A stretch of DNA of 64,000 nucleotides, taken from assembly GCF_015277775.1 (NCBI RefSeq), contig NZ_CP063849.1, forward strand, positions 4,650,001-4,714,000. Reading direction: 5' to 3'. The notes beneath the pieces are model-generated. The model searched no databases. It was not told the origin of the DNA and worked only from the letters and a program-made list of their open reading frames with translations. Below, piece by piece: positions 3,144 through 44,301 of the stretch (positions are counted from its first letter, which is position 1; the number at the start of each line of letters is the position of its first letter). The stretch is from Paludibaculum fermentans (GTDB lineage Bacteria; Acidobacteriota; Terriglobia; Bryobacterales; Bryobacteraceae). A program made the position numbers and the translations under genes.

Positions 3144-3231
3144 GCATGGGGGCGGGTCCGGGCCGGCTGCGGGCCCCAAGGCTGCCGGTCGGCGCGATAT
3201 CCTTTACTCAGGATTAGAGGGACCTGGACGC

Positions 3232-3744
3232 ATGAAACTCAACTGGATGATTGCTACTTTTGCGGCCGTACTGATGAGCACTGCCGCTTATTCCGCGGAA
3301 ATCCCGCAGGTGGGCCAGCCGGCTCCGGAGTTTTCGCTGCCTTCCCAGGAAGGCTCGAACGTCGCGCTGAAGGCGCTGCGCGGGAAATGGGTGGTGTTGT
3401 ATTTCTACCCTAAGGACATGACTCAGGGGTGCACCATCGAGGCGCACAACTTCCAACGGGATCTCGCCAAATACGAAGAGAAGAATGCCGCGATTCTCGG
3501 CGTCAGCGTCGATTCCGTCGATAGCCACAAGGAGTTCTGCACGAAGGAGAGCTTGACGTTCAAGTTGTTGGCGGATTCGGGCAAGAAGGTCACTGAGGAG
3601 TATGGCTCGCTGAACCAGCGCGGGATGGCGTCGCGGAACACCTTTCTCATCGATCCGAAGGGCAAGATCGCCAAGGTTTGGACGGGGGTGAGCCCGGCGA
3701 AGCATAGCGAAGAGGTTTTGGCGGCCCTGGGGGAGATGAAGTAG
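3232..3744 (+). CDS. Exported peroxiredoxin (Bcp/AhpC-TSA family)
   Basis: This 170-residue thiol peroxidase reduces peroxides. A signal peptide is clear (residues 1-22, ending AYSA), so it acts outside the cytoplasm. The thioredoxin-fold peroxidase motif FYPKDMTQGCT places the peroxidatic cysteine at Cys67. Bcp proteins often carry a resolving cysteine five residues later; here that position is His72. The only other cysteine is Cys103, in EFCTKE, which could serve as a displaced resolving residue, or the enzyme may be of the 1-Cys type. The gene stands alone with its own Shine-Dalgarno-like AGAGGGA and a terminator-like hairpin after it. Confidence 0.93.
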   Translation: MKLNWMIATFAAVLMSTAAYSAEIPQVGQPAPEFSLPSQEGSNVALKALRGKWVVLYFYPKDMTQGCTIEAHNFQRDLAKYEEKNAAILGVSVDSVDSHKEFCTKESLTFKLLADSGKKVTEEYGSLNQRGMASRNTFLIDPKGKIAKVWTGVSPAKHSEEVLAALGEMK

Positions 3745-3755
3745 ACGCGGGGGAC

Positions 3756-3793
3756 GGGCTCGCCGGATTGTTGACGAGTCCAGTGTTTTCTTG
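3756..3793 (+). terminator. Probable intrinsic terminator after the peroxiredoxin gene
   Basis: GGGCTCG at 3756-3762 pairs with CGAGTCC at 3775-3781 (seven pairs, one of them G-U) around a 12-base loop. It is followed by a T-rich stretch, agtgttttcttg. It lies 11 bases after the peroxiredoxin stop codon. No folding energy was calculated. Confidence 0.5.
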
Positions 3794-4049
3794 ATTTGTT
3801 GGAGGCCGGGGAGCACGCGCTTCCCGGCTTGTTTGCTTGTTGGCTGGGGAGTTTGGGTGGCTCCCCCTCTCCTTGCAGTGGCGGCTCTGAGCGCGGGGGA
3901 GGACGGGGTTGCCTCGGTTGCTCGTTGGGTTGCGGAGCTGCGTTGGGGTATCCGCTCACTCACGTTCGCGGCTCCGTTTGGGTGCGGCTCGGTTGCGGGT
4001 GCGGGGCGGTTGGCGAACTGGGATATCTTTGGGAGCAGAGGATATTCGC
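3794..4049. other. G-rich intergenic stretch with a dispersed-repeat copy
   Basis: No credible gene is seen here. Positions 3951-3980 closely resemble the core of a 50-base repeat found twice at 31851-32000 (shared end TCGCGGCTCCGTTTG). The strongly G/T-biased composition of the plus strand is like the other repeat-bearing gaps in the window. The promoter of the downstream glycosidase must lie here but none is obvious. Confidence 0.45.
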
Positions 4050-5072
4050 ATGCCAAATGGATGGTGGGCGGCGCTGCTGCTGGTGGCTCCGCTGCTGGCG
4101 CAGACGCCCGTGAAGACCGGGCTGACGTTCGGCGAGTTCTACCTGCACGACCCGTTCATTCTCGCCCACAAAGCGACCCAGACCTACTACCTGTACTGCG
4201 GCGCGGGCGCCCGGCAGTTGGGCGGTCAACGGGCCGGCGTCGTCACCTATAAGAGCAAAGACATGCTGCACTGGGACGGCCCCTTCAAGGTCTTCGAAGT
4301 GCCCGACGGGCTGTGGGCCGATCCGGCCGAGGGCGTTTGGGCTCCGGAGGTCCATCTGTACAAGGGCAAGTACTACCTGATGGCCACGCTGCACAACAGC
4401 AAGAAGCTGCTGCCTTATGCCGATGAGGAGAAGCTGCCCATCTATAACGGCAAGCCGGCGAAGCCGCACCTGCGCGGGACACAGATCTTCGTGGCGGACT
4501 CGCCGGAAGGCCCGTTCGCGCCGCTGGGCAACAGCCCGGCTCCTCCGGCGGAACTGATGACGCTGGATGGCACGCTGTATGTCGAGGGCGGAGTGCCGTA
4601 CATGGTCTACGCACACGAGTGGATCCAGGTGCTGGACGGGACGATGGAAGCCGTGCCGCTGAAGAAGGACCTGTCGGCGCAGGCGGGGGCTCCGTTTCTA
4701 CTGTTCCAGGCGTCGGAGGCTCCGTGGGTGAGCGAGCAGGCGAAGAAGGCGGAGAAGCCGCGGAACTATGTCACCGATGGCCCGTGCCTGTACAAGACCA
4801 AGAAAGGCAAGCTGCTGATGCTGTGGTCGAGCTACCGGGACGGACTGTATGTGGAGACGGTGGCGTATTCCACCAGCGGCAAGCTGCGCGGACCCTGGAA
4901 GCAGGGTGAGGTGCTGGTGGGCAACGACAGCGGGCACGGCATGCTGTTCGAGTCATTCGACGGGAAGCTGATGCTGGTGCTGCACCAGCCGTTCCGGCAG
5001 GCCCGGGGGAAGCTGTTCGAGATGGAAGATACCGGCGCCACGGTGCGAATCGTCAAACAGATCGTGCGGTGA
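4050..5072 (+). CDS. Secreted glycoside hydrolase, GH43-like five-bladed propeller
   Basis: The product has 340 residues if translation starts at 4050 (MPNGWW), which gives a signal peptide ending near LLLVAPLLAQ; an AGCAGAGGA-like ribosome site precedes it. Features of the GH43/GH32/DUF377 propeller superfamily are visible: HDPFI near residue 31 (candidate catalytic Asp), YYLYCG, WAPEVH with a candidate acid Glu, YYLMAT, and TDGPCLYK with LLMLWSS in a late blade. GH43 enzymes act on arabinan and xylan side chains. The protein is somewhat shorter and more divergent than classic members, so the substrate cannot be predicted. No transporter or other glycosidase is adjacent. Confidence 0.8.
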   Translation: MPNGWWAALLLVAPLLAQTPVKTGLTFGEFYLHDPFILAHKATQTYYLYCGAGARQLGGQRAGVVTYKSKDMLHWDGPFKVFEVPDGLWADPAEGVWAPEVHLYKGKYYLMATLHNSKKLLPYADEEKLPIYNGKPAKPHLRGTQIFVADSPEGPFAPLGNSPAPPAELMTLDGTLYVEGGVPYMVYAHEWIQVLDGTMEAVPLKKDLSAQAGAPFLLFQASEAPWVSEQAKKAEKPRNYVTDGPCLYKTKKGKLLMLWSSYRDGLYVETVAYSTSGKLRGPWKQGEVLVGNDSGHGMLFESFDGKLMLVLHQPFRQARGKLFEMEDTGATVRIVKQIVR

Positions 5073-7665: not shown

Positions 7666-8430
7666 TCAGGCCGCAGTGACCGTCTGGCGGAGCCAATCCT
7701 CGAAGTGCGTCGCGCCCAGTTGGGCGGAGGCGTCGAGGGGGACGATCCCGGTTTCGCTGATTCCAGCTCCGAAGTAGCCGGCCTTGGGGTCGACAACGAT
7801 CTCGCGCGCGTCGTGGCGGGCGTTCAGGTCCATCCCGATCGCCGCTTCGAAGGTGTAACGATCGGGGCCGGCGATTTCGAGGGTTCCGTTGAGGGGGGCG
7901 GCTTCGGCGACACGGGCGAGGGTTGCGGTGACATCGTCAGCCGCGATGGGTTGGATTAGAGCCGCCGGAACCACGACCTTCCCGTCGACGGTGGAATAGT
8001 CCGCGATGCCCTTCACAAACTCGAAGAACTGCGTGGCCTGCACGATGGAGTAGGGGATGGAGGAGTCGCGGATGAGTTGCTCCTGCGCAATCTTCGCGCG
8101 GAAGTAGGGCACCTGCGAGCTACGGTGGATGCCGACGATGGAGAGGGCGATGTGGTGTCCGACTCCAGCAACCGCCTCATAGGCAAGAAGGTTCCGCGTG
8201 CTGGTGGTGAAGAAGTCCAGGACAGCCTTTTCCTCGTAGGAAGGGGCGTTGGTGACGTCGACCACGACGGAGGCACCCTGAAGCGCCTCGGCCAGGCCTT
8301 CTCCAGTGAGGGCGTTGACGCCGGTGCGGGGCGAGGCGGGCGTAACCTCGTGGCCGGCTGCGCGCAAGAGGGCGACGAGCCTGGTGCCGATGAGCCCGCC
8401 GCCTCCGACGACTACGATCTTCTTTGACAT
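7666..8430 (-). CDS. Atypical SDR / NAD(P)-binding epimerase-like oxidoreductase, probable ECF41 target
   Basis: The 254-residue Rossmann protein has an N-terminal nucleotide-binding motif (VVVGGGGLIGTRL, about residues 6-18) and a YxxxK pair at Tyr109 and Lys113. It resembles NmrA-like and atypical SDR proteins, so an NAD(P)-dependent reduction or a redox-sensing role is likely; the substrate is unknown. AAGGAG precedes the ATG. A promoter with the ECF41-type -35 sequence TGTCACA is located about 70 bases upstream of the start. The gene converges on the ECF41 sigma gene with 25 bases between stops. This matches the known association of ECF41 sigmas with such enzymes. Confidence 0.88.
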   Translation of the reverse strand: MSKKIVVVGGGGLIGTRLVALLRAAGHEVTPASPRTGVNALTGEGLAEALQGASVVVDVTNAPSYEEKAVLDFFTTSTRNLLAYEAVAGVGHHIALSIVGIHRSSQVPYFRAKIAQEQLIRDSSIPYSIVQATQFFEFVKGIADYSTVDGKVVVPAALIQPIAADDVTATLARVAEAAPLNGTLEIAGPDRYTFEAAIGMDLNARHDAREIVVDPKAGYFGAGISETGIVPLDASAQLGATHFEDWLRQTVTAA

Positions 8431-33585: not shown

Positions 33586-33877
33586 CTTAACGATCTGTGG
33601 ATGCTGAGCCGGGATGACGATTCCTGTTGGCGCGCCGGCATCCTCTCCAGGCCGAACTTCTGGACCACATCCGATGTTGCGGGACTATGTACGAGTGGCG
33701 CGTGATCCGCTCGGAACCGGCTCAAGCGAACCGACTTCCCGTTCCTGATCTGGGTCGGCGCTTCTCCGTGTTGGGGACTACGTAGCCAGATGCTTTCAAT
33801 CGTTGACCCGGCCATGTCGACTTGGCCGCGCGACCTCCCGTGCGTTTGCAGGCTATTGATTCTTCGACAAAATTCAT
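33586..33877. other. Intergenic region left of the LexA-like operon
   Basis: No complete gene is recognised in these 292 bases. A short open stretch on the plus strand that reads PLQAELLDHI could be a gene remnant, but it has no start or family. Base composition falls towards the right end. It is the likely left boundary of the lower-G+C segment that follows. Confidence 0.35.
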
Positions 33878-33899
33878 ATACTGTAAATTTTGACAGTAT
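33878..33899 (+). promoter_or_regulatory. SOS (LexA) box overlapping the promoter of the repressor-methyltransferase-nuclease operon
   Basis: ATACTGT (33878-33884) and ACAGTAT (33893-33899) form a perfect inverted repeat around eight bases, i.e. TACTGT-N8-ACAGTA, the E. coli-type LexA box core CTGT-N8-ACAG. TATACT at 33877-33882, a good -10, overlaps its left arm, so bound repressor would block RNA polymerase. The start codon of the lexA-like gene is 12 bases downstream. The only binding protein in view is that gene product, implying autoregulation and induction by DNA damage. Confidence 0.85.
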
Positions 33900-33911
33900 C
33901 AGTTTCGTGCC

Positions 33912-34541
33912 ATGATCCGTTCAGCGACTTTGACAGCTCGGCAGATGCAAGTGCTAGCGTTCGTGAAGGATCGACAGCGGGACACGGGCATGGTCCCGAC
34001 AATCCAGGAAACGGCGACGCACTTCGGTTTCAAAAGCTTAAACTCCGCGCGTGAGCATTTTCGCCTTATCGAAAAGAAGGGCTTCATCCACCGTGTTCCG
34101 GGACGTTCCCGTGGACTGGTGGTGGTCCGACCCGAGGGTGCGGGTGATCAGGATTCGGCCCGCGTGCCACTGCTTGGCAGGATTCCCGCTGGGCATCCCG
34201 TTCTTGCGCACGAAGACACTGAAGCACTGCTCACTCTACCGGCCGGCATGTTCCACGGAGGCGGCCTTTTCGCGCTCCGCGTACGCGGAACCAGCATGGA
34301 GGGAGTCGGCATCCTCGACGGAGACATCGCGGTTCTTGATTCGATGAAGGAGGTGAAAGATGGAGCGATTGCGGCTATTCTGATTGAGGATGAGGCAACG
34401 CTCAAGCACGTGTATCGTCGGCCGGAAGGACTTCTTTTAAAAGCAGAGAACCCGATGTTCCGCGATATTGAGGTTCCCCCCGCCGCCGCTGAGCGAGCGC
34501 GGGTGCTGGGTGCGTTGGTCGGGGTTGTTAGGAAGGTCTGA
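33912..34541 (+). CDS. lexA: LexA-like SOS repressor (S24 autopeptidase)
   Basis: The 209-residue protein matches LexA throughout. Its winged helix (1-72) keeps Ser42, Asn44 and Glu48, equivalent to E. coli Ser39, Asn41 and Glu45, which read the CTGT half-site. The scissile Ala93-Gly94 bond lies in LLGRIPAGHP, and the catalytic dyad is Ser128 (RGTSMEGVG) and Lys165 (EATLKHV). All catalytic parts are intact, so RecA-stimulated self-cleavage is expected. It is the first gene of a three-gene operon with a DNA methyltransferase (three-base gap) and a nuclease. Whether it is the cell's main LexA or a dedicated copy cannot be told from this window. No Shine-Dalgarno site is seen. Confidence 0.93.
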   Translation: MIRSATLTARQMQVLAFVKDRQRDTGMVPTIQETATHFGFKSLNSAREHFRLIEKKGFIHRVPGRSRGLVVVRPEGAGDQDSARVPLLGRIPAGHPVLAHEDTEALLTLPAGMFHGGGLFALRVRGTSMEGVGILDGDIAVLDSMKEVKDGAIAAILIEDEATLKHVYRRPEGLLLKAENPMFRDIEVPPAAAERARVLGALVGVVRKV

Positions 34542-34544
34542 CCC

Positions 34545-37500
34545 ATGCCAGACACTCACACCTCCCCGAAGGTCGGTCGCCTGAAAAGGCTCGCGAACGC
34601 GTTGGGGTGTCCAGAACTGATCCTGCTGGACTCCGAGGTTAACGCATCTCAGTTGGAGTACTTGGACCTGGTGCCCGCCAAAACCGGTGCTCTCCTGCTG
34701 CCAGATGCAGTAGCGGAGTTTCAGGGCCGACCGCTACTGTATCTGGTCGACGACGCCGGTGAAGCAGGCAAATCGCCGCTGCAAGTCGCGCAGGTTCAAG
34801 GACTGCAAACACTGCTCGCGAACCGCAGCGAACATGCCTGCCTGGGCGTAGTGAGGCCCGGGTCACTCGACGTTTATCCCATCAATCTTGATCGCAAGGC
34901 TCTGACTGAAGCGAATTTCAAGACGATTCAGATATCCGACCCGGATGCGCCGGCATTCTTCCAAAGCCTCGCGACGGGGACCTTCGATCTGCCGGGACGT
35001 CCAGATCAAGCAGACTACGTGTACGAGAGTATCTACGGACTCCTCACCGCGGCGTCCACGCAACTTGCTGGGGGAAAGGATAAGGCCGGCCCGATGCGTG
35101 GTTTGGAAGTGCTCTCCACGACAGGCCGCGCGCTGTTTTTTCGCTTCTTGATCGACCGCCGCATCGTCTTACCCTCAGAAGTTGCCGAGATCTCCCCCGG
35201 AGCCGACGGCTTGAAGGACGCCTTTTCGAATGCGGAGAATGCGGCCGCCACCTCCTGCTGGCTCGATGAGACGTTTAACGGCGACCTTCTTCCGTTGGTC
35301 CAGGGGTTGACGCCAGAGACCAGTTCGGAGGAGCGACTCCGCATATACCTACGTTTCTATCGCGATGCAGGCGTGGCAACAGGTCAACAACTGTTCAGGC
35401 ACTTGGAGGCAATTCTTCAAGGCTGGAAGCACGTTGGCGGCACTCAGTTTCAGACTGCGTTGGATTGGGACGACTTTGACTTTGCCCACATTCCAATTGG
35501 CGTCCTCAGCCAGGTCTATGAAACATTCAGCCACCAGTGGGATGAGGAGCATGCAGAAGAAACTAGTGTGTATTACACCCCGAGACACCTCGCCAGGATC
35601 CTGGTGGAAGAGGCGTTCGCAGGGCTAGAACAGCCGGCTGATGCAGTTGTGCTCGACCCGGCATGTGGTGCCGGCGTGTTTCTCGTTCTTGCTTTCCGCC
35701 AACTTGTCCGGAGGAATTGGGAGAAACAGGGCGCTAGACCGGACACACGCACGATCCAGAGGATCCTCTACAAGCAACTTCGGGGCTTTGAGGTAAGTGA
35801 GTCTGCCCTAAGATTGACCGCTCTGGCGCTCTACATATCCGCGATCGAACTGAATTCCACACAGCGGCCGCCGCGCAGTCTCAAGTTTCCACGGCCACTG
35901 CGAGATGAAGTATTGTTCAATTTTGGCCGCCATGAATTGGAGCAACAGCACGGATTTGCGATGGGCAGCCTTGGTCCCGAGGTGCCGGTGGCTTTCAACA
36001 ATTTCTTCGATATCGTAGTGACGAACCCTCCCTGGACTCGCTTGCGAGCCACGGCTAAGGACGCGAAGGCCAGGACAGAAGATAAGAAGCGGGTCGCTGA
36101 GACCAATGCTGCATTCACCGCTTTGACGCGTCGCGCTCTCGCCGCGCGTGGCCTTGAAGCGGTCGCCAGTGGCTACACAAACCCGGACAACAACCCCGAC
36201 CTGCCGTTTCTGTGGCGTGCGACCGAATGGTCGAAACAGGGAGGCATCATCGCGATGGCGTTGCCGGGCCGCGTCATCCTTAAGCAAAGCGCCAAAGGCA
36301 AAGCTGCTCGTGATGCCATCATGCTCGGACTGGCGGTGACCGGAATCCTAAACGGCTCGGATCTGGAGAAGACGCCAGTATGGCCCAAGATGGACCTGCC
36401 GTTCATCCTCCTGTTCGCTCGGAACACTCTCCCGCGGCCAGACCACCGTTTTCATTTTGCAACGCCAGTTCGTGAAAACCGTCTTAGCAGTCGCGGCCAG
36501 TTTCGGCTCGACTACCAAGCCGCAGAATCTCTGGCTGTGCAGGCCGTTATTGAAAAGCCATGGATGTTTAAGGCACTCGCAGTGGGCACGGTACTCGACG
36601 TCGACATAGTTGACAGACTCACTCAGAGGTCTGTACGCGATTTCTGGACAGCCAACGGATTGTACTCTGGCGAGGGGTACAACTTGTCGCCGGGGTTAGA
36701 ACAGCGGCCAGCTGACCATCTGTTTAATCTCCCTGATTTCGAAGTCCCCGAGAGTGGTTTTTCTATCCGGCCAGAGGAGCTAACCACCTGGCGGGAAGTA
36801 CACAAACGGGAGACCGCTCATTTCCCTCGCAATGAGCGATTGTACGCCGCCCCGCTTGTCATTGTTCCACAGACTCCGCACGAATCGAGGGAGCAACCCA
36901 AGGCGTTTGTATCAAGGCTAGCTGCGCTCGCATTTTCAAAAAGCAACTATGGTTTCTCAGCAGCCACGTCCCCTGATGGGCAGGTAATTGCATCCGCCCT
37001 TTACCTCGCCTTACACAGTAGCCTGTATCAGCATTTTTGCTTGATGAGGAGCTCACGCCAAGGAGCGAGCTTCCGAACAATACTTAAAGAAGACGTAGAG
37101 GCATTCCCATTCCCCGATCCAACTCGGCTTTCCGACGCGGATAAGCGTCGCACAATTGAGCTTGCCCAGGCTTTGGAAACGCGAGTCACAAAGCCCTGGG
37201 ACGAAATTGATGATTTCATCTTCAGACTCTATGGACTTGATGAACATGATGCCACCGTCGTACGGGACACCGTTGCTTTCTGCGGCCCATATCGCTCTAT
37301 TCGTCAACCCGCAGAGCTGCCGGCTGGCCCCGACGACCTAGAAGTGTTCCGCGGTTATCTGGAGGACATGCTGCAACCGCTGTTCCAGGTCGCGGACCAA
37401 AAATGCGCCGTCCGGGTGCTCGGCGCGGGCGAGTGGTATCCGCCTTGGAGGTTCGTGTCCGTGATTCTCGCCGGCGACAAATTGGGCGACACCCAGAAAC

Positions 37501-37688
37501 TACTGAAGCGCTTGATGGTCGAAGCTGGCAAGACTGGAGCGAGCCGAATTGTGCTTCGAGTGCCGAACGGCGGGCTCCTCGTCGGAATCGTCAATCAGCG
37601 CAGGTTTTGGACTCGGAGCCGGGCGCGACTGTGCAGCCTGAACATCGAGCGGCACCATTTGGATGCTTTTCCTCTCCCTGCGCAATGA
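34545..37688 (+). CDS. Large Eco57I-like DNA adenine methyltransferase (restriction-modification type)
   Basis: This 1047-residue protein is an N6-adenine DNA methyltransferase. SAM motif I is VLDPACGAGVF (369-379) and catalytic motif IV is NPPW (494-497), the form found in Eco57I/type IIG and BREX PglX-like enzymes. About 300 residues precede the core; they contain no obvious PD-(D/E)xK set. The roughly 500 residues after it probably include a target-recognition domain and spacer helices. GGAAGG precedes the start, three bases after the lexA-like stop. The stop overlaps the start of the nuclease gene as ATGA. Sampled lines have about 55-57% G+C against about 75% in a line of the sugar-porter gene, which suggests acquisition. 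It could be a modification enzyme or a bifunctional enzyme. Confidence 0.88.
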   Translation: MPDTHTSPKVGRLKRLANALGCPELILLDSEVNASQLEYLDLVPAKTGALLLPDAVAEFQGRPLLYLVDDAGEAGKSPLQVAQVQGLQTLLANRSEHACLGVVRPGSLDVYPINLDRKALTEANFKTIQISDPDAPAFFQSLATGTFDLPGRPDQADYVYESIYGLLTAASTQLAGGKDKAGPMRGLEVLSTTGRALFFRFLIDRRIVLPSEVAEISPGADGLKDAFSNAENAAATSCWLDETFNGDLLPLVQGLTPETSSEERLRIYLRFYRDAGVATGQQLFRHLEAILQGWKHVGGTQFQTALDWDDFDFAHIPIGVLSQVYETFSHQWDEEHAEETSVYYTPRHLARILVEEAFAGLEQPADAVVLDPACGAGVFLVLAFRQLVRRNWEKQGARPDTRTIQRILYKQLRGFEVSESALRLTALALYISAIELNSTQRPPRSLKFPRPLRDEVLFNFGRHELEQQHGFAMGSLGPEVPVAFNNFFDIVVTNPPWTRLRATAKDAKARTEDKKRVAETNAAFTALTRRALAARGLEAVASGYTNPDNNPDLPFLWRATEWSKQGGIIAMALPGRVILKQSAKGKAARDAIMLGLAVTGILNGSDLEKTPVWPKMDLPFILLFARNTLPRPDHRFHFATPVRENRLSSRGQFRLDYQAAESLAVQAVIEKPWMFKALAVGTVLDVDIVDRLTQRSVRDFWTANGLYSGEGYNLSPGLEQRPADHLFNLPDFEVPESGFSIRPEELTTWREVHKRETAHFPRNERLYAAPLVIVPQTPHESREQPKAFVSRLAALAFSKSNYGFSAATSPDGQVIASALYLALHSSLYQHFCLMRSSRQGASFRTILKEDVEAFPFPDPTRLSDADKRRTIELAQALETRVTKPWDEIDDFIFRLYGLDEHDATVVRDTVAFCGPYRSIRQPAELPAGPDDLEVFRGYLEDMLQPLFQVADQKCAVRVLGAGEWYPPWRFVSVILAGDKLGDTQKLLKRLMVEAGKTGASRIVLRVPNGGLLVGIVNQRRFWTRSRARLCSLNIERHHLDAFPLPAQ

Positions 37689-38416
37689 GTGTATTCGGCT
37701 TCTTCACTGCAATTCCGGACTACGAGCTGCCGCACCCCCAGATCCCGCTGCGCGTCATTCTCACCACACATCGGGCACTTGTAAAGGCATTTGAGTTACT
37801 TCGCGCGAAGCCGCCTATGGGCTTCGGCCTCGCTCAGGCCAAAGAAGACGAAATCACGAGGCAACTGCATTGGATACTCGAGAATAGACTGCTCCGTAGC
37901 CGGGAAGTTGCTGGGTTCGACCGTCGCCGCATTAGAAATGTCATCCGGGCGCCGGAAGTTACCAATTACGACGGTACGCATCCGGCAAAGAAGCCTGACC
38001 TGGTTTTATTCCTCTTGGAACGCGAGTCTCTTCCGGTCTTGCCATCTCACGATGGCCTTTTCGCGGAATGCAAGCCGGTAGACGATGATCATCCCATAGG
38101 CAAGCACTATTGCGATGGCGGAATTAAGCGGTTCGTCAATGGCGACTATGCTTGGGCTATGCAGGAAGGTATGCTCGTTGCATATGTTCGCGGCCGACGC
38201 AACATAGGCACGGATCTTGCGCCCGCACTTGCGTCCGATAGTCGGCATGACGGTCTCGGCTCTCCGACGGCACCTGTAGTCGTTGGCGCCTCGGGCACGG
38301 CCAAGGAAAGTGTTGTACTTCAGGCCACGTTGCACCAGCGGCTCTTCTCTTGGCCTGATGGCCGGGGCGCTGCTTGCGCGATTCGCATTTTTCACTCCTG
38401 GCATGATTGCTCCTGA
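37685..38416 (+). CDS. Putative PD-(D/E)xK restriction nuclease
   Basis: The ATG at 37685 overlaps the methyltransferase stop by four bases (ATGA), so the genes are translationally coupled; the product has 243 residues. I recognise no named family, but the centre fits the PD-(D/E)xK nuclease fold: an early helix with Glu56, Pro104-Asp105 at the start of a hydrophobic strand (PDLVLFLL), and Glu128-x-Lys130 in LFAECKPVD. The loop between Asp105 and Glu128 is long. WAMQEGMLVAYVRG then gives the next helix and strand. With a methyltransferase directly upstream, a restriction endonuclease is the natural reading. This is inferred, not shown by homology to a known enzyme. Confidence 0.72.
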   Translation: MSVFGFFTAIPDYELPHPQIPLRVILTTHRALVKAFELLRAKPPMGFGLAQAKEDEITRQLHWILENRLLRSREVAGFDRRRIRNVIRAPEVTNYDGTHPAKKPDLVLFLLERESLPVLPSHDGLFAECKPVDDDHPIGKHYCDGGIKRFVNGDYAWAMQEGMLVAYVRGRRNIGTDLAPALASDSRHDGLGSPTAPVVVGASGTAKESVVLQATLHQRLFSWPDGRGAACAIRIFHSWHDCS

Positions 38417-38781
38417 GTTTGGACAGGTCCACCTCGCAGAGCGTCGGGCCGAGGATGGTTCGGTTCACTTCCCCTGGGCGGTGCCTAATCCAAGTGGCCG
38501 TATAACGCCCTACTCGCGGAAGTGCTTCTGGCCTGGACCGGGCGTATTGCCACTCGGAGATTGGTCAGGCACGGGGGCGCTCGCGCGTCGGCAGGAAGAT
38601 GCTCTCTAGCGCTCTTTACGTTAAAGTTGGCGCTCATGGGGCCTTGCGGCAAGCTGAGGTCCAGTAGGAAGCCGGGACTCCACGCCAAAGCCTTGGTCCC
38701 AGCGGCGGCCCGCGCTGAATGGGTCGCGGGTTGAATGGGCCGTGCGGGTTTGCCAAAATCACGCTGAGAGGAGCGCGGCGC
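38417..38781. other. Intergenic region right of the LexA-like operon
   Basis: No gene is recognised in 365 bases. Short open stretches on both strands have no family features. G+C content rises again towards the right. It probably contains the right boundary of the acquired segment, but no direct repeat with the left flank, tRNA end or integrase gene was found by eye. Confidence 0.35.
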
Positions 38782-39042
38782 ATGGATTACGACCAGGATA
38801 AGGTCGACGAGGCAGTGCTGGCGTTGTTGAGCCTGACGATTCACGACGAGGATGAATGGGGCGCTTCCACTTGGAAGTCCCACGACTGGGCTGTCATGGA
38901 CCGCCTGCACGCCAAGGGGTACATTTCGAACCCGAGAGGCAAGGCGAAATCGGTGGTCCTGACTCCAGAGGCAGCGGCATTGTCGCGTGCCCTCTTCGAG
39001 CGGTATTTTGCGAAGACGACGCAGAAGGCGGGGGCCGACTGA
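38782..39042 (+). CDS. DUF6429 family protein
   Basis: This small 86-residue protein starts MDYDQDKVDEAVLALL and contains WKSHDWAVMDRLHAKGYISN and AKSVVLT, the pattern of the DUF6429 family, followed by LFERYFAK at the end. The fold looks like a winged helix, but the function of the family is unknown. GAGAGGAG lies 9 bases before the ATG. It stands alone between the LexA-like operon and an inverted-repeat element. Confidence 0.8.
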   Translation: MDYDQDKVDEAVLALLSLTIHDEDEWGASTWKSHDWAVMDRLHAKGYISNPRGKAKSVVLTPEAAALSRALFERYFAKTTQKAGAD

Positions 39043-39046
39043 ACTG

Positions 39047-39318
39047 ACAGCCTGTGGCGGAAGTCGCGCAGCCGCGTTCGCACCGCCGCCAGTGCAAGAA
39101 TGGCAGCTTAAGTGCAATCTCGAAGCCTCTCTGAAGAGAGCCGCCAATTTCTGGGCGGAGGGCCGGCGCCGGAGCGAACCCAAAGGGCGACAAGGGGTTG
39201 CGGCCCATGGCAGTGTCGAGCCGGCCTCCGAGTGGCCGGCCCTAGTTCGGCCGGCTCTTCGCGCCCTGGGCTCGCAAGCCCTTGCCGCGCGGCTTGCGGG
39301 ACTTCCGCCACAGACTGT
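39047..39318. mobile_element. MITE-like 272-base element with about 30-base terminal inverted repeats
   Basis: The left end ACAGCCTGTGGCGGAAGTC (from 39047) and the right end read on the other strand, ACAGTCTGTGGCGGAAGTC (from 39318), differ by one base. Similarity continues inward (CGCA-GCCGCG on both sides) to about 30 bases. The interior has no gene. The element lies between two convergent genes, and its right end supplies the first base of the stop codon of the methyltransferase gene. No target-site duplication is obvious. A very widely spaced terminator is an alternative reading. Confidence 0.55.
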
Positions 39319-40088
39319 TACGCTTCGGCCGCGCGCCGCAGCCAGGTGTTGCCGAAGTAGCTGAGGCCGGAGAAGTCGACGGGCTCTCCAAAGGCAGGGA
39401 CGAAGCGTTCACGCTGGAACTCCGGGTGATCCACGAGGAAATCAGCCACCGCGGCGCCGGGATTGTCGAACTCCCAGGATTTGTCTCCATCCGGCAGATG
39501 GGCCAGTTCCGGCATGTTGCTGTCGGCGACGACGACGTAGGAGCCGCCCGTGACCAGCGGCGCGAAGTTCCGCAGTTCGGCGGCGACGTGCTGTTTTCGA
39601 TGGTCGCTGTCCAGGAAGACGAAGGCGGTCTCTCCGGGCGGCACCAGCGAGCGCACAGCGGCAGCGGTGGCAGGGGCGCTGGAATCGCCTTCCACCAAAG
39701 TGACGAGCCCGGCGGCGTGTTCTTCGATCGCCTGGCGCACGGGCGGCCGGATCTCGGATTCCACGGAGATCACGCGGCCGTGCCCCATCAGCCGGCAGAG
39801 CGAGGCGAACCAGAGGGTGCTGCCACCGTCATAGATGCCCGTCTCCACGATCACAGCGGGCCGGAGCCGCCAGATCGCCTCAGCCAGGCGCAACATGTCG
39901 TCCGGCAATTGCAGGAATTGCCGCCCCATCCAGGAGAAGGTGGTCCAATGGCCGAGATTCCAGCCGAGTTTCAACCACTCGCGCGACAATAGATGAAAGG
40001 CATCCGGGCTGTACAGGGGATGCGTGGCCTGATGCCCGCCTTCAGTGACGGTGAGCACCGCGGCTTCCGTATCAATTGTGATGAGCAT
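39318..40088 (-). CDS. CmcI-like / rhamnosyl O-methyltransferase family protein
   Basis: The 256-residue protein resembles the cephalosporin hydroxylase (CmcI) and rhamnosyl O-methyltransferase family. It has VIVETGIYDGGSTLWFA as the SAM-binding motif I, an acidic residue in VISVESE, AFVFLDSDHRKQHV with a metal-binding-type Asp-x-Asp-His, and GGSYVVVADSNMPE. Such enzymes methylate sugar hydroxyls on glycolipids or surface polysaccharides. GGGAGG lies six bases before the ATG, which fixes the start. It is divergent from another methyltransferase gene whose earliest start overlaps this one by two bases. Confidence 0.85.
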   Translation of the reverse strand: MLITIDTEAAVLTVTEGGHQATHPLYSPDAFHLLSREWLKLGWNLGHWTTFSWMGRQFLQLPDDMLRLAEAIWRLRPAVIVETGIYDGGSTLWFASLCRLMGHGRVISVESEIRPPVRQAIEEHAAGLVTLVEGDSSAPATAAAVRSLVPPGETAFVFLDSDHRKQHVAAELRNFAPLVTGGSYVVVADSNMPELAHLPDGDKSWEFDNPGAAVADFLVDHPEFQRERFVPAFGEPVDFSGLSYFGNTWLRRAAEA

Positions 40089-40818
40089 GAATTCCTCCCG
40101 ATGGAGCCGCGAAGAGATGGAGCGGCACGATGCCGAGGCGGCGGAACGGTTCCCCGGACCGGACTACCGCCAGGCTTTGCAATGGCTGCACGAGATCGTG
40201 AAGCCGCGAGTGTATGTGGAGATCGGGGTGCATTGCGGAGACTCGCTGCGCCTGGCTGCCCACGCGGAAGTGGCCGTGGGTGTCGACCCGGCCGCGGAGA
40301 TTGCGCAGGAGGTTCCCGGGCCTATGCACGTCTTCCGCATGACCAGCGATGAGTTCTTCCGGAGGTCCCTGCTGGAGGGGCTCTGCGCGGAGAGGCCGAT
40401 CGACCTGGCGTTCATTGATGGCCTGCACCTCTTTGAACAGGTGATGAGGGATATTCACGGGCTGGAGCGGTACGCGGGCCCGGACACCATCATCGCTTTG
40501 CACGACACCATCCCGCTGAACGCAGAGACGTCGGAGCGGATTCGGCGCACGGAGTTCCATACGGGCGACGTGTGGAAGGCCGTGGCCTGGCTGCATACCC
40601 ACCGGCCCGAACTGCGCATCGTGACGATTCCGGCGGCACCCACGGGCCTTACCCTGATCCGCGGTTTCGGCAGTGGGCGTGCGCATCCGCCCGCACCCGA
40701 CGAGCAGGTGCTGCGGCGCTTTGCCGACCTGGACTGGGCGCACTTCCAGGCGCACAGCGGGCAGTTCCTCCAACTGGCGCCTCATGCACGGTCCACGATT
40801 CAGTCTTTCTGCCAATAG
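40087..40818 (+). CDS. Class I SAM-dependent methyltransferase (Methyltransf_24 type)
   Basis: From ATG 40087 the product has 243 residues. Motif I is YVEIGVHCGDSLRLA, followed by GVDPAAE, DLAFIDGLHLFEQ (Asp and His for metal or substrate) and IIALHDTIP. This belongs to the same methyltransferase group often found in polysaccharide and glycan loci. The start is uncertain: ATG 40087 overlaps the divergent gene's start codon and has no ribosome site, while ATG 40117 (MERHDAEAAE) follows GAAGAG and may be correct. The 3' end overlaps the convergent TylF-like gene by 19 bases. Confidence 0.82.
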   Translation: MNSSRWSREEMERHDAEAAERFPGPDYRQALQWLHEIVKPRVYVEIGVHCGDSLRLAAHAEVAVGVDPAAEIAQEVPGPMHVFRMTSDEFFRRSLLEGLCAERPIDLAFIDGLHLFEQVMRDIHGLERYAGPDTIIALHDTIPLNAETSERIRRTEFHTGDVWKAVAWLHTHRPELRIVTIPAAPTGLTLIRGFGSGRAHPPAPDEQVLRRFADLDWAHFQAHSGQFLQLAPHARSTIQSFCQ

Positions 40819-41624
40819 ATACCGGTCCAATCGATTGTGTGCACTTTCGGGCTGAGCCCGTGCCGGGCCAGATACTCCTCGACAGCCAAACGGCAGCCGG
40901 GGATGCAGCCGTAGTCGTCGACAATGACAAAGCCGCCGCGAGCGACCTTCGGATAGAGGAACGTGAGGACGTCGCGGGTGGATTCGTAGAGATCGGCGTC
41001 GATGCGGAGCAGCGCCAGCGTGTGGATGGGCGCCGTGGGCAACGTCTCGCTGAACAGGCCTTCCAGGAAATGAACCTGGCCGTCCAGGAGGCCATAGCGG
41101 GCAAAGTGGTCCTTAACGCGGGCGAGCGAGATGGCCAGGTTGGGAAAGCGGTCCGCGCTGAGGTCCTCGTCTTCGTCCTGCGGCAGGCGGGAAGCGGGCA
41201 CTCCGGCGAAGGAATCGGCGGCCCAGACGTGGCGGCTGGTGATGCCATGGGCGCGCAGGAAGCCGCGCAGGAAGATGGGGACGCCGCCCTGCCAGACGCC
41301 GCACTCCATGAGATCGCCGGGCGTCTGGTCCCGGAGGATCTGCTCCAGGCACTGCTCGACATTGGACAGGCGCAAGCGGCCCACCATGGTGTGCTGATAA
41401 CCGAGGTTTTCGACGCGATCGTCGAGAAAGCGGCCCACCGAGGCCAGTTCGCGAAAGGTGCGGCAGAACTCGGGCATGCGCTCTTCGATGCGGAGCTCGG
41501 TGTGCCAGTCGTATGGGCGCAGGCCTTGCGCGCTCTCCCGCAGATAGAGGATGCGAGCCTCGTTCTCCCAGTACAACTCGCCCAGGAGGCTTTTCTTCAA
41601 CAGGTCGAGATATAGCGTCTCCAC
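40800..41624 (-). CDS. TylF/MycF-family O-methyltransferase
   Basis: A GTG start at 41624 is chosen because GAGGAGG lies ten bases upstream; it gives 274 residues and a 28-base overlap with the upstream gene. TylF/MycF features are DLMECGVWQGGVPIFL (motif I), VWAADSFAGVP, LLRIDADLYESTRDVL and GGFVIVDDYG (metal-binding aspartates). The family performs Mg2+-dependent O-methylation of sugars in macrolides and in glycans. Overlap with the radical SAM-glycosyltransferase gene suggests that the two act on the same glycan. Confidence 0.87.
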   Translation of the reverse strand: METLYLDLLKKSLLGELYWENEARILYLRESAQGLRPYDWHTELRIEERMPEFCRTFRELASVGRFLDDRVENLGYQHTMVGRLRLSNVEQCLEQILRDQTPGDLMECGVWQGGVPIFLRGFLRAHGITSRHVWAADSFAGVPASRLPQDEDEDLSADRFPNLAISLARVKDHFARYGLLDGQVHFLEGLFSETLPTAPIHTLALLRIDADLYESTRDVLTFLYPKVARGGFVIVDDYGCIPGCRLAVEEYLARHGLSPKVHTIDWTGIYWQKD

Positions 41625-44086
41625 GAACCCAGAACCTCCTCGTCGGAGAGAGCGGTGCGATGGCTCCACCATCGTCCGCGGGCAATCCGCCACTTCATGC
41701 GCGGGCTGGTGAAGCTCCGCGCCACGTCTTCCGGCGCGCGAGCCAGCAGGTCCAGGACGCCTTCGAGTGTGCCCGCAGTCACCCAGTTTCTCAACTGGAA
41801 TAGAGCCTGGTTGCGCAGCCACATCGCCTCGATCTGGTCGCGGGTGAAGTAGCGCTTCACGGTGACGCCCTGCTCGTGATGGACGATGGAATCGGGACTG
41901 AACAGGATGCGGTAGCCGAGCTTGCGGGCGCGCCAGCCCCATTCGACGTCTTCCCAATAAAAGTCCGGGTAGGACTCGAAGTCGAGCAGATCGAGGAGGA
42001 CGCGCCGCTGGAAGAGAGAGGCGCCTCCGCCGGCGTAGAACCCTTCCACGGTGGCGGCGGAGTGGGGAATGCGGTCAGCCAGGGCCACCAGGCCATTGTC
42101 GTCGCTGATGTCGCACCAATTGGTCTCTTCGCGGAACCGGGTGGCGTCGCCGAGGATGATCTGCGAGGCGATGGCGAAGGTGTTGGCATCGCGGTGGGCA
42201 GCGGCGGCGGCGAGCGCCTCGGGCTCCAGGATCGCATCGCTGTTGAGGAGGTAGACCCAGGCGTGCCGGGCCGCCCGCAGGCCAGCGAAGACGGCCCGCG
42301 AGAAACCCAGGGGCCGGCGGTGAAACAGCCACTGTGCTTCGGGAGCTTGAGAGCGAAGCTGGGCATAGGCTTCGGGCGGCGTGCCGTTCACCACCACCAC
42401 GGCCTGCACCGGCTCGCTGAGAAGAGAGGCTGCGATGCCGACGCTGCGCAGGCATTCGGCGAGTCCGGCGGGATTGCCGCGTTCCGGAATGACGACGGTG
42501 AGGCCGGGTTGGGCTTCCAGACGAGCGGATGTCCTCCGTGCTGGGAGCGCGCGGGCTGCCAGCTGCGCAAACCGGTCCACGCGGTGAATCCATTCTTCCA
42601 CGGGGGCCAGAAATTGACGGGACCTGCGATAGAGGTCGGGGTCGAGATGCGGCTTGGAGGCGAGCAGGACCATGGCGAACCCGAGGTCGCGCTGATCGCT
42701 GCCCGCTGCGTGTTCGCTGGGCCGGTAGATCTGGGTGGTACGGAAATCGAGCACCCAGGGACCGAGGCCGGGCTGGACAGGAGAGAAGTCCAGGCCAAAC
42801 GGCATGATCTCGTCATACGGATTCGAGACGACGCCGACCGGCCGGCCGTTGCACTGGATCGCCAGTTCATTCGGCTGGCCGTCGCGGCCCGGCGGAAGCA
42901 GACCGGACACATGGAAGGACTGCGAGGAACGGAGCGGCGCGAGGACGGCCGAAGCGCGCTGGGTGGACCAGATATGCTCCTGGCCTTCCGGATCGTGCCA
43001 GCCGTGGACGAGTTGCGCGCTGCCGCCGCGTTCGGCGTGAATCGCGGAGTGCCATTCCGAAGGGCGGTAGGCCGTCTTCCACGCGCAATTCCGGCACTCG
43101 GCCCCTTCCGCGCGCAGGTAACGGGCGCGAAACTCGCGGTAGAGCGGACCATTCCAGATCTCCGCGATGTCCTGGGTGAGCAGATTGCCCAGGGACTTCC
43201 GGTCCAACACCTCGCAGGCGACCACGTCTCCGTTGGCCAGCACGTGCGCCGTGTCCCAGGGATTCTGTTCGCAGCTATGGATCGCCCCGCCGGCGGGCAA
43301 CGGCCAGGGATAAGAGATGGGGACCTGTCCGAGGCGCGGCGGATCACCCCCGGGAAGTGGATTGCAAAGCGTCAGGCTGATCTCCGGCCGTGCCCTTTGC
43401 GTGGCTGCCAACTGCTGGTCGAGGCGGGCGCGGAAACCTGGCTTCGCGATGCCGGAGGGATCCAGTTCAACGGTGAACGTCTCAGGAATGGGATCGCGGC
43501 GCTGGATGGGGAAGACCATGACGTCGCGCAGACCCAGGTCATGGGCCAGTTCGGCGACGGCGGTGAGTTCGGCGAGGTTGCGATCCATGGCCACGAAGGC
43601 CAGGTCGACGATGGGCGGGTTGGGCAACCCACTGCAGATGGCGAGGAAGCGCTCGAGCCGGGAACGCAAGGCGGCAAAGGAGCCGTAGCGGTAGATCCCG
43701 AAGTAAAGCGCTGGATCGGTCGCGTGGACGGAGACGGTCAACCGGTTCAAGCCGCTGGCTGCCAGGCGGGGCAGCATTTCCTCAGAAAGCGGCGTGAGAA
43801 CCGAAACCAATTCGACATACGCACCGGTGGAACGAGCCAGTTGAATTGCGGGAATCAGGTCAGGGTAATGAGTGGATTCCCCGGAATAATTGAGCATCAG
43901 ACGGCGCGGATCCACCAGGGACCGCAGCAGCCTCTCGAACACGGGAAAGGGCAGATGCTGACCGGCGCCGCGCCGCAGTTTTCGTGAGCAGAATACGCAG
44001 TCGAGGGCGCACTTGGACGTGAGCTCGATCCACAACGACCTCGGAGTCGGAGCAGCCTGCGCCGGCAGAATCTTCAGATCCGTCAT
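41597..44086 (-). CDS. Radical SAM / SPASM-like protein fused to a family 2 glycosyltransferase
   Basis: From ATG 44086 (MTDLKILP) the protein has 829 residues. Residues 15-220 form a radical SAM domain with C26-x3-C30-x2-C33 in SKCALDCVFCSRK and the NYSGESTHYPD segment. A SPASM-like cysteine region follows (about 270-335; CEQNPWDT to CRNCAWK). A middle beta-rich domain (about 340-500) precedes a GT2 domain (about 525-780) with LTVVIPERGN, VVVVNGTP, LLNSDAILEP in the DxD position and FYWEDVEWGWRARKLGY. The fusion suggests that one protein both modifies and glycosylates a peptide or glycan. A longer start at 44287 is less likely. Confidence 0.85.
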   Translation of the reverse strand: MTDLKILPAQAAPTPRSLWIELTSKCALDCVFCSRKLRRGAGQHLPFPVFERLLRSLVDPRRLMLNYSGESTHYPDLIPAIQLARSTGAYVELVSVLTPLSEEMLPRLAASGLNRLTVSVHATDPALYFGIYRYGSFAALRSRLERFLAICSGLPNPPIVDLAFVAMDRNLAELTAVAELAHDLGLRDVMVFPIQRRDPIPETFTVELDPSGIAKPGFRARLDQQLAATQRARPEISLTLCNPLPGGDPPRLGQVPISYPWPLPAGGAIHSCEQNPWDTAHVLANGDVVACEVLDRKSLGNLLTQDIAEIWNGPLYREFRARYLRAEGAECRNCAWKTAYRPSEWHSAIHAERGGSAQLVHGWHDPEGQEHIWSTQRASAVLAPLRSSQSFHVSGLLPPGRDGQPNELAIQCNGRPVGVVSNPYDEIMPFGLDFSPVQPGLGPWVLDFRTTQIYRPSEHAAGSDQRDLGFAMVLLASKPHLDPDLYRRSRQFLAPVEEWIHRVDRFAQLAARALPARRTSARLEAQPGLTVVIPERGNPAGLAECLRSVGIAASLLSEPVQAVVVVNGTPPEAYAQLRSQAPEAQWLFHRRPLGFSRAVFAGLRAARHAWVYLLNSDAILEPEALAAAAAHRDANTFAIASQIILGDATRFREETNWCDISDDNGLVALADRIPHSAATVEGFYAGGGASLFQRRVLLDLLDFESYPDFYWEDVEWGWRARKLGYRILFSPDSIVHHEQGVTVKRYFTRDQIEAMWLRNQALFQLRNWVTAGTLEGVLDLLARAPEDVARSFTSPRMKWRIARGRWWSHRTALSDEEVLGSWRRYISTC

Positions 44087-44264
44087 CCCTGGCCCCAGTG
44101 TAGCGCGCGCGTGGGAATAACCGGCTCGATTTGGGAGAAGCAGTAAATCCAAGTTAAGAATCTCGGATTCTGCCATATGGAATAGAAGGTATTTCAGAGG
44201 AGGAGACGGGGCGGCTCTCAGTCCAGAGATGGAGCTGCATTGCCCGCCGGATGGAGAATGTTGC

Positions 44265-44301
44265 TTGACATCGCAAGGCAAGCCCATTATCCTCCATCGA
44301 T
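44265..44301 (+). promoter_or_regulatory. Promoter and palindrome of padR module 3
   Basis: TTGACA (44265-44270) and TATCCT (44288-44293) are 17 bases apart. ATCGAT at 44296-44301 is the centre of a near-palindrome that lies between the -10 and the ATG at 44307. The layout copies that of the other two padR promoters. An autoregulatory operator is inferred. Confidence 0.6.

Follow-up and report, generated by a model that had tools for sequence, protein, structure and literature searches.

A 64,000-nucleotide stretch of the Paludibaculum fermentans genome (contig NZ_CP063849.1, positions 4,650,001 to 4,714,000; hereafter the window) carries three plus-strand open reading frames (ORFs), designated A, B and C, directly 3′ of a 20-bp palindrome. 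We put at about even the chance that they make up a self-contained restriction–modification-like operon under a dedicated LexA-type repressor. In this operon, A is a LexA-family gene, B encodes a predicted adenine-type DNA methyltransferase and C encodes a putative nuclease.

Gene content of the operon

The LexA-family repressor gene A occupies positions 33912–34541 (209 aa; a DNA-binding domain and an S24 autoprotease domain), the methyltransferase gene B positions 34545–37688 (1047 aa) and the putative nuclease gene C positions 37685–38416 (243 aa). The start of C was taken as 37685, where the alignment of its relatives begins (the mechanical ORF table has 37403). A and B are separated by 3 bases, and B and C share a 4-base ATGA overlap. 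This coupling of the three genes had been claimed in an initial annotation of the DNA, together with a G+C content lower than that of the surroundings, and both are present as described (57.4% G+C in the operon vs 64.4% in the rest of the window). Among the lowest-G+C 4505-bp stretches listed, all six overlap the operon. The whole genome comprises 9.53 Mb in two contigs.

Based on Pfam annotation, A contains LexA_DNA_bind and Peptidase_S24, the two domains being fused as in the LexA repressor family, and its NCBIfam lexA score was 166 bits at a cut-off of 111. The closest LexA chain of known structure was 8s7g (E 3e-36); where A reads GFKSLNSAREH in the recognition region, structurally solved LexA chains have GFKSPNAAEEH and GFRSPNAAEEH. 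The A93-G94 cleavage site and the S128/K165 pair (alignment numbering) are kept in all six operon LexAs, that of the window and those of the five relatives described below. The two other LexAs encoded in the window's genome likewise have the Ala-Gly site and the Ser/Lys pair. A single branch (support 94/97, just under the level marked by the tool's star) splits the six operon LexAs from eight other LexAs of the same genomes in a 14-sequence tree. We infer that A is a repressor with LexA-type self-cleavage.

B contains an N6-adenine-type methyltransferase core at approximately residues 310–540 (Pfam N6_Mtase 59.9 bits, MmeI_Mtase 38.4 bits, Eco57I 25.9 bits), and its catalytic motifs DPACGAG and NPPW are kept in the five members aligned. 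The best PADLOC match was the REase_MTase_IIG model, with 64 bits covering only approximately residues 310–500, and the likeness to Type IIG, MmeI and PglX proteins is weak. No nuclease family from Pfam or NCBIfam was found in residues 1–300, where the structure model was too poor to help. Membership in the bacteriophage exclusion (BREX) system was rejected, the PglX models scoring 24–31 bits vs NCBIfam cut-offs of 400–900, and so was membership in the methylation-associated defence system (MADS), with 33.7 bits for the MAD2 methyltransferase vs an NCBIfam cut-off of 720. No phage relative of B was matched in 50,697 phage records at E 1e-5, and 0 of 52 pattern matches in IMG/VR were confirmed; distant phage relatives could escape either search. 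The domain matches and motifs point to an adenine-type DNA methyltransferase, which may methylate host DNA.

C matched no family in Pfam, PADLOC or NCBIfam. Nevertheless, it is likely a PD-(D/E)xK-like nuclease: D105, E128 and K130 are invariant in all 11 aligned members, and a structure model built from six sequences follows the order helix, helix, strand, strand, strand with E-x-K, helix, strand, helix, strand, strand, which is the order expected of a PD-(D/E)xK core. The predicted local distance difference test (pLDDT) score of the model was 65, with 47–74 by ten-residue blocks over residues 101–180, which hold the motif. The best restriction-enzyme fold match of C, EcoO109I (E 0.92), was insignificant and was not used. 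The second match of a phylum search with a single C sequence (locus L010 of genome G151) lay opposite a 697-aa ORF and was dropped as a chance match.

Relatives of the operon and its operator-like palindrome

One scan of the genome-contigs collection with B gave 22 pattern matches, five of which were confirmed as relatives; with patterns drawn from peptides of the query itself, the scan will have missed some relatives. The confirmed relatives belong to the alphaproteobacterium Bradyrhizobium pachyrhizi (L004), a gammaproteobacterial metagenome-assembled genome (MAG; L005) and acidobacterial MAGs (L006–L008). In all five, a LexA-like gene lies directly upstream of B and a relative of C directly downstream, so that the gene order, which might have been unique to this genome, is kept with the genes abutting. 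Identity to the window's proteins was 44–53% for the LexA-like protein, 45–57% for the methyltransferase and 46–53% for the nuclease. The spacing between A and B is 3 bases in the window and -4, 2, -1 and -4 in L004, L005, L006 and L007, and that between B and C is -4 in the window and -4, 6, -4 and -4 in the same loci. These values cover the five loci measured; in L008, the B gene has one in-frame stop at 8149–8151, reflecting either real decay or an assembly error.

Among the flanking stretches compared, the only ORFs of at least 80 aa with cross-homology at E 1e-6 were the DUF1501- and PSD1-type genes beside L006 and L007; this near lack of shared flanks is consistent with the unit moving as a block. 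Genes for a PtuA-like ATPase, HsdM and HsdS come after the L005 copy, and the scanned flanking ORFs of L004, L006, L007 and L008 look like ordinary genes. The distribution of the operon is sporadic, C being found in none of the three same-genus genomes listed. When the window was compared with one of these (G1236), the flanks matched two different contigs (79% and 72% identity) and no clean empty site was seen; neither of the other two genomes was matched.

The operator-like palindrome TACTGTAAATTTTGACAGTA is found at positions 33879–33898 (no strand assigned) and has the form TACTGT-N8-ACAGTA, with fully complementary arms and an 8-base spacer. In each locus, the best match to TACTGY-N8-RCAGTA was taken from the 150 bp before A, start codons being chosen by the analyst. 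It has no mismatch in the window, L006, L007 and L008 and one mismatch each in L004 and L005. It ends 13 bp before the start of A in the window and 12, 13, 18, 10 and 12 bp before it in L004–L008, respectively. Equally good sites occurred 0, 0, 1, 0, 0 and 0 times (window, L004–L008) in 3000 order-1 shuffles per locus, figures that flatter the palindrome because the pattern was derived from these same loci. Without mismatches, TACTGT-N8-ACAGTA occurs only once in the window's genome, at the operon. The relatives' genomes G399 and G400 likewise have no mismatch-free site other than that of the operon, whereas G398 has three, the operon site included. With up to two mismatches, the window's genome contains 47 sites vs 112 for the reversed-pattern control. 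The totals of operator-like sites in the five relatives' genomes are 7, 7, 25, 19 and 9 vs 121, 37, 88, 57 and 45 in the controls. Since the counts are under the controls in all six genomes, no regulon can be claimed.

A separate observation concerns the gammaproteobacterial MAG (G397), which contains the perfect site TACTGTACTTTGGAACAGTA at positions 4427–4446 of locus L107 (contig C49). This site is located 57 bp before an M.Eco57I-like methyltransferase gene (2747–4369), and a 451-aa gene that matches no Pfam family converges with the latter. Here, another methyltransferase, unrelated to the first, may be under a LexA-type box.

The initial annotation called the palindrome an E. coli-type SOS box. 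We take the sequence to fit the E. coli-type consensus; membership in the host SOS regulon, which the term suggests, is not supported, because another lexA, recA and two polymerase genes share a different box. This candidate SOS box, AGTGTAA-N4-TTACACT, was derived from the site before a lexA gene (L002), and five sites with up to two mismatches were found in the window's genome. Four of them precede lexA, a Y-family polymerase gene, a DnaE-type polymerase gene and recA (L026, L027, L028 and L030), and the fifth is L029. RecA scored 543 bits. For the Y-family polymerase, the matches to DNA polymerase IV models stayed below the cut-offs, as did those of the DnaE-type polymerase (a partial ORF) to polymerase III alpha and error-prone polymerase models, which were about equal. 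The evidence for the host-type box is the genes that it precedes and not the number of sites, because the count (5 vs 20 in the control) is below the control. The other lexA gene (L003) was absent from the five sites, and the operon box is not among the host-type boxes. Thus, as the host-type box differs and the mismatch-free operon box occurs once, the palindrome is best taken as an operator belonging to the operon itself.

The two further LexAs encoded elsewhere in the window's genome scored 145.5 and 174.9 bits, over the NCBIfam cut-off. At least one other full LexA over the cut-off is present in 5 of 5 relatives' genomes, which makes 6 of 6 carriers with that of the window. A is therefore not the sole LexA of its genome, contrary to one alternative raised in the initial annotation.

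Distant methyltransferase–nuclease pairs and genomic surroundings

B matched 43 plasmid records, in five cases across 80% or more of its length, and C matched the same five and none of the 38 others at E 0.01. Four of the five long matches were examined (the fifth being a near copy by place and score), together with one of the 38. Searches with a nuclease profile gave, besides G396, 5 of 397 genomes and 8 of 295 (9 places), and in a third set 2 of 298 genomes besides the window's own. The resulting 21 distant loci comprise the five plasmid loci and all 16 places from the profile searches. In all 21, C is downstream of B on the same strand, and the open frames touch in 20 of them, the distance being 565 bp in L088. 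Counting the six LexA-led loci, B and C are neighbours in all 27 loci examined.

A profile search found a LexA relative in none of the 21 distant loci, one of which (L091) ends upstream of B at a contig end. Consequently, the idea of a LexA-like gene as the constant leader of the pair could not be upheld. The types of the other leading regulators were partly read by eye. Seven loci have a MerR-like leading ORF: that of L054 is over the Pfam MerR_1 cut-off and that of L081 matches under it, those of L031, L034, L057 and L084 have no Pfam match, and that of L085 was read by eye alone. The leading ORF is annotated as XRE family in L032 and L033, with Pfam helix-turn-helix (HTH) matches under the cut-offs, and resembles another HTH in L083 (Pfam E 0.18). 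Ribbon-helix-helix-like leading ORFs were seen in L058 (Pfam E 0.0012, under the cut-off) and L089 (by likeness), and the leading ORF of L056 matched HTH_11 over the Pfam cut-off. No leading regulator was recognised in the remaining seven (L035, L055, L082, L086, L087, L088 and L090).

In the tree of B (24 rows; L008, L034 and L087 left out), the five LexA-led rows form one clade with 100/100 support, which sits in a group of eight with the two XRE rows and L031. A 10-row tree of C sets the LexA-led loci apart by a weakly supported branch (79/86). Given a single LexA-led clade of B and other leaders elsewhere, LexA control looks to have been gained once on an older methyltransferase–nuclease pair; alternatively, LexA may have been lost elsewhere. 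A restriction–modification-like pair seems to have taken on a dedicated LexA of the predicted self-cleaving type, and the operon points to an exchange of controllers on one such pair.

As for the surroundings of the distant pairs, the plasmid copy in L032 is near AbiEi/AbiEii, a restriction endonuclease and an integrase, and that in L033 is near VapC, an integrase, an HNH gene and a SIR2 gene. Right after the operon, the window contains a DUF6429 gene (38785–39042, 98 bits); DUF6429 genes are also found beside IS66 elements near the Pseudomonas plasmid copy of the pair. Just 3′ of the DUF6429 gene is a dispersed repeat of unassigned kind (39048–39320, approximately 273 bp), with 13 further nearly full-length copies of 85–93% identity in the window's genome and two full copies and some partial ones in one same-genus genome. 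An ADOP-family permease (NCBIfam), of a kind that suggests Acidobacteriota, is also encoded near the operon. The minus-strand ORFs at 39318–44287 encode CmcI- and TylF-type O-methyltransferases and a radical-SAM/SPASM and glycosyltransferase protein, and they possibly represent a sugar or natural-product modification cluster.

Possible mechanism, alternatives and known systems

What can be seen in the sequences is the order and close spacing of the genes, the palindrome and where it lies, the conserved catalytic residues, the separate LexA branch and the other or missing leaders of the distant pairs. The simplest reading is a single autoregulated operon with predicted activities. On this basis, we suggest the following course of events. 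The repressor would bind the palindrome before its own gene and hold the whole operon low, and a basal level of the methyltransferase would mark host DNA. Phage entry, conjugation or damage would generate single-stranded DNA, by which RecA would be activated. Activated RecA may then cause the repressor to cut itself at Ala-Gly, as its conserved residues suggest, and the three genes would rise together. The methyltransferase, encoded before the nuclease, would protect host DNA, and the nuclease would cut unmarked DNA, after which fresh repressor would reset the circuit. The three-gene set suggests, in this form, a DNA-defence system switched on by DNA damage. More broadly, and with somewhat less than even confidence, we propose a clade of restriction–modification-like systems with their own LexA and operator, in which RecA filaments on invading or damaged DNA release both enzymes. 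Such systems would respond to single-stranded DNA by induction, the reverse of restriction alleviation, and would not depend on the host's LexA in whichever phylum they enter.

Several observations weigh against this proposal. No sigma-70-type plus-strand promoter was found in 33586–38760; both sites predicted there are on the minus strand (shuffle mean 1.7), so no promoter is visible at the palindrome. The operon sites of G396 and G397 each carry one mismatch, each counts among 7 sites with at most one mismatch in its genome, and G397 has a better, mismatch-free site elsewhere. The operon box and the host-type box differ at 3 of 14 fixed positions (counted by eye), and the host LexA might therefore also bind the operon box. 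The nuclease assignment of C draws on a motif and the model of pLDDT 65; Foldseek gave no match to this model at E up to 0.001, and a sequence search of solved structures with C gave none up to E 1. The structure model of B was unusable (pLDDT 49.5). A Pfam scan of the 8 neighbouring ORFs of the window copy gave no defence gene. Only six LexA-led loci are known, and a narrower LexA-clade nuclease profile found, in 369 gammaproteobacterial-class genomes, only G397 itself. As 7 of the 21 distant loci are without a recognised regulator, the controller may not be essential. Finally, in E. coli, damage is described as lowering Type I restriction rather than raising it (PMC12707154).

The same parts would also fit a LexA-type protein that replaces a C protein as housekeeping controller, for self-safety and not against phages, an explanation that we consider unlikely but worth keeping in view. 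The protein would restrain expression once the operon has entered a new cell; by cleaving itself, it would sense nuclease cuts in the cell's own under-methylated DNA, raise the methyltransferase and restore protection. The repressor gene is indeed first in its own operon, small proteins annotated as XRE family take this position in L032 and L033, which is the position of C proteins in Type II systems, and a C-like gene upstream of hsdM, S and R is reported that apparently represses that operon (PMC12707154). However, the B and C genes overlap, and induction would be expected to raise both; moreover, there is no plus-strand promoter inside the operon in a scan covering sigma-70-type sites. Less probable still is something other than classical restriction, in which a PglX-like mark would be combined with a suicide or general nuclease loosed on severe damage, as an abortive defence or SOS-linked toxin. 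B is only weakly like the Type IIG, MmeI and PglX models, and C belongs to no family in the libraries scanned, as such a system would allow. Against it, the PglX scores are far under the NCBIfam cut-offs, and the pair is adjacent in 27 of 27 loci, as expected of cognate modification and cutting.

We regard as very improbable an ordinary host SOS set in which A is the chromosomal LexA and B and C are chance neighbours, although NCBIfam names A lexA. Other LexAs over the cut-off are encoded here and in every relative's genome, and another lexA, recA and the DnaE-type and Y-family polymerase genes share another box. Host SOS control as the sole explanation was rejected on the grounds of the single occurrence of the operon box and its difference from the host-type box, and chance adjacency of the three genes was rejected, because the order is kept in 5 of 5 relatives.

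If a dedicated, RecA-responsive LexA does control this operon, restriction would not be only constitutive or timed by C proteins and could be tied to a RecA/single-stranded-DNA signal, which can come from phage entry, conjugation or self-cutting. Restriction as an induced response would become directly testable, and a portable LexA–operator pair would be working beside other LexAs. We found no description of a LexA-led restriction–modification operon in the open-access literature, a scope that misses most subscription papers and preprints and makes this weak evidence of novelty. A 2025 review of restriction–modification describes C proteins, antisense RNA, promoter methylation and damage-linked alleviation, and it does not contain the word lexa (PMC12707154).

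The operon can be filed as a variant of Type II-like restriction–modification. The Type II traits present are a methyltransferase and a putative nuclease side by side in 6 of 6 LexA-led and 21 of 21 distant loci, and catalytic motifs kept in both enzymes (5 members of B, 11 of C). It resembles Type IIG and MmeI-like (Type IIL) systems in having an NPPW adenine-type core in a protein of approximately 1000 aa, but the operon begins with a LexA-type gene and encodes the likely nuclease separately, downstream of the methyltransferase. As in C-protein-controlled Type II systems (PvuII, BamHI type), a DNA-binding protein gene heads the unit, and two distant relatives have XRE-annotated proteins in the leading slot. 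The controller of the operon, however, is a LexA-family autoprotease, and there is no gene for an XRE-type C protein; C-protein systems are switched by the level of their own controller, whereas the operon controller would be switched by RecA.

The BREX system, with PglX and the WYL-type BrxR, shares with the operon a large methyltransferase, here weakly PglX-like, and a dedicated repressor, BrxR being a WYL-type repressor that controls a defence island (PMC9122601). In contrast, the operon has a likely nuclease and a LexA instead of a WYL protein, and no BREX partner such as PglZ or BrxC was found by Pfam among the 8 neighbouring ORFs. The recognition region and catalytic residues of A are as in the LexA of the SOS regulon, but the operon box has one mismatch-free site in its genome, and recA, the polymerase genes and another lexA use a different box. 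Lastly, EcoKI restriction alleviation also links DNA damage to restriction, and there damage is reported to lower restriction by proteolysis (PMC12707154, PMC11109961). In the operon, by contrast, damage would raise transcription, so that the two would differ both in sign and in the level at which control is exerted.

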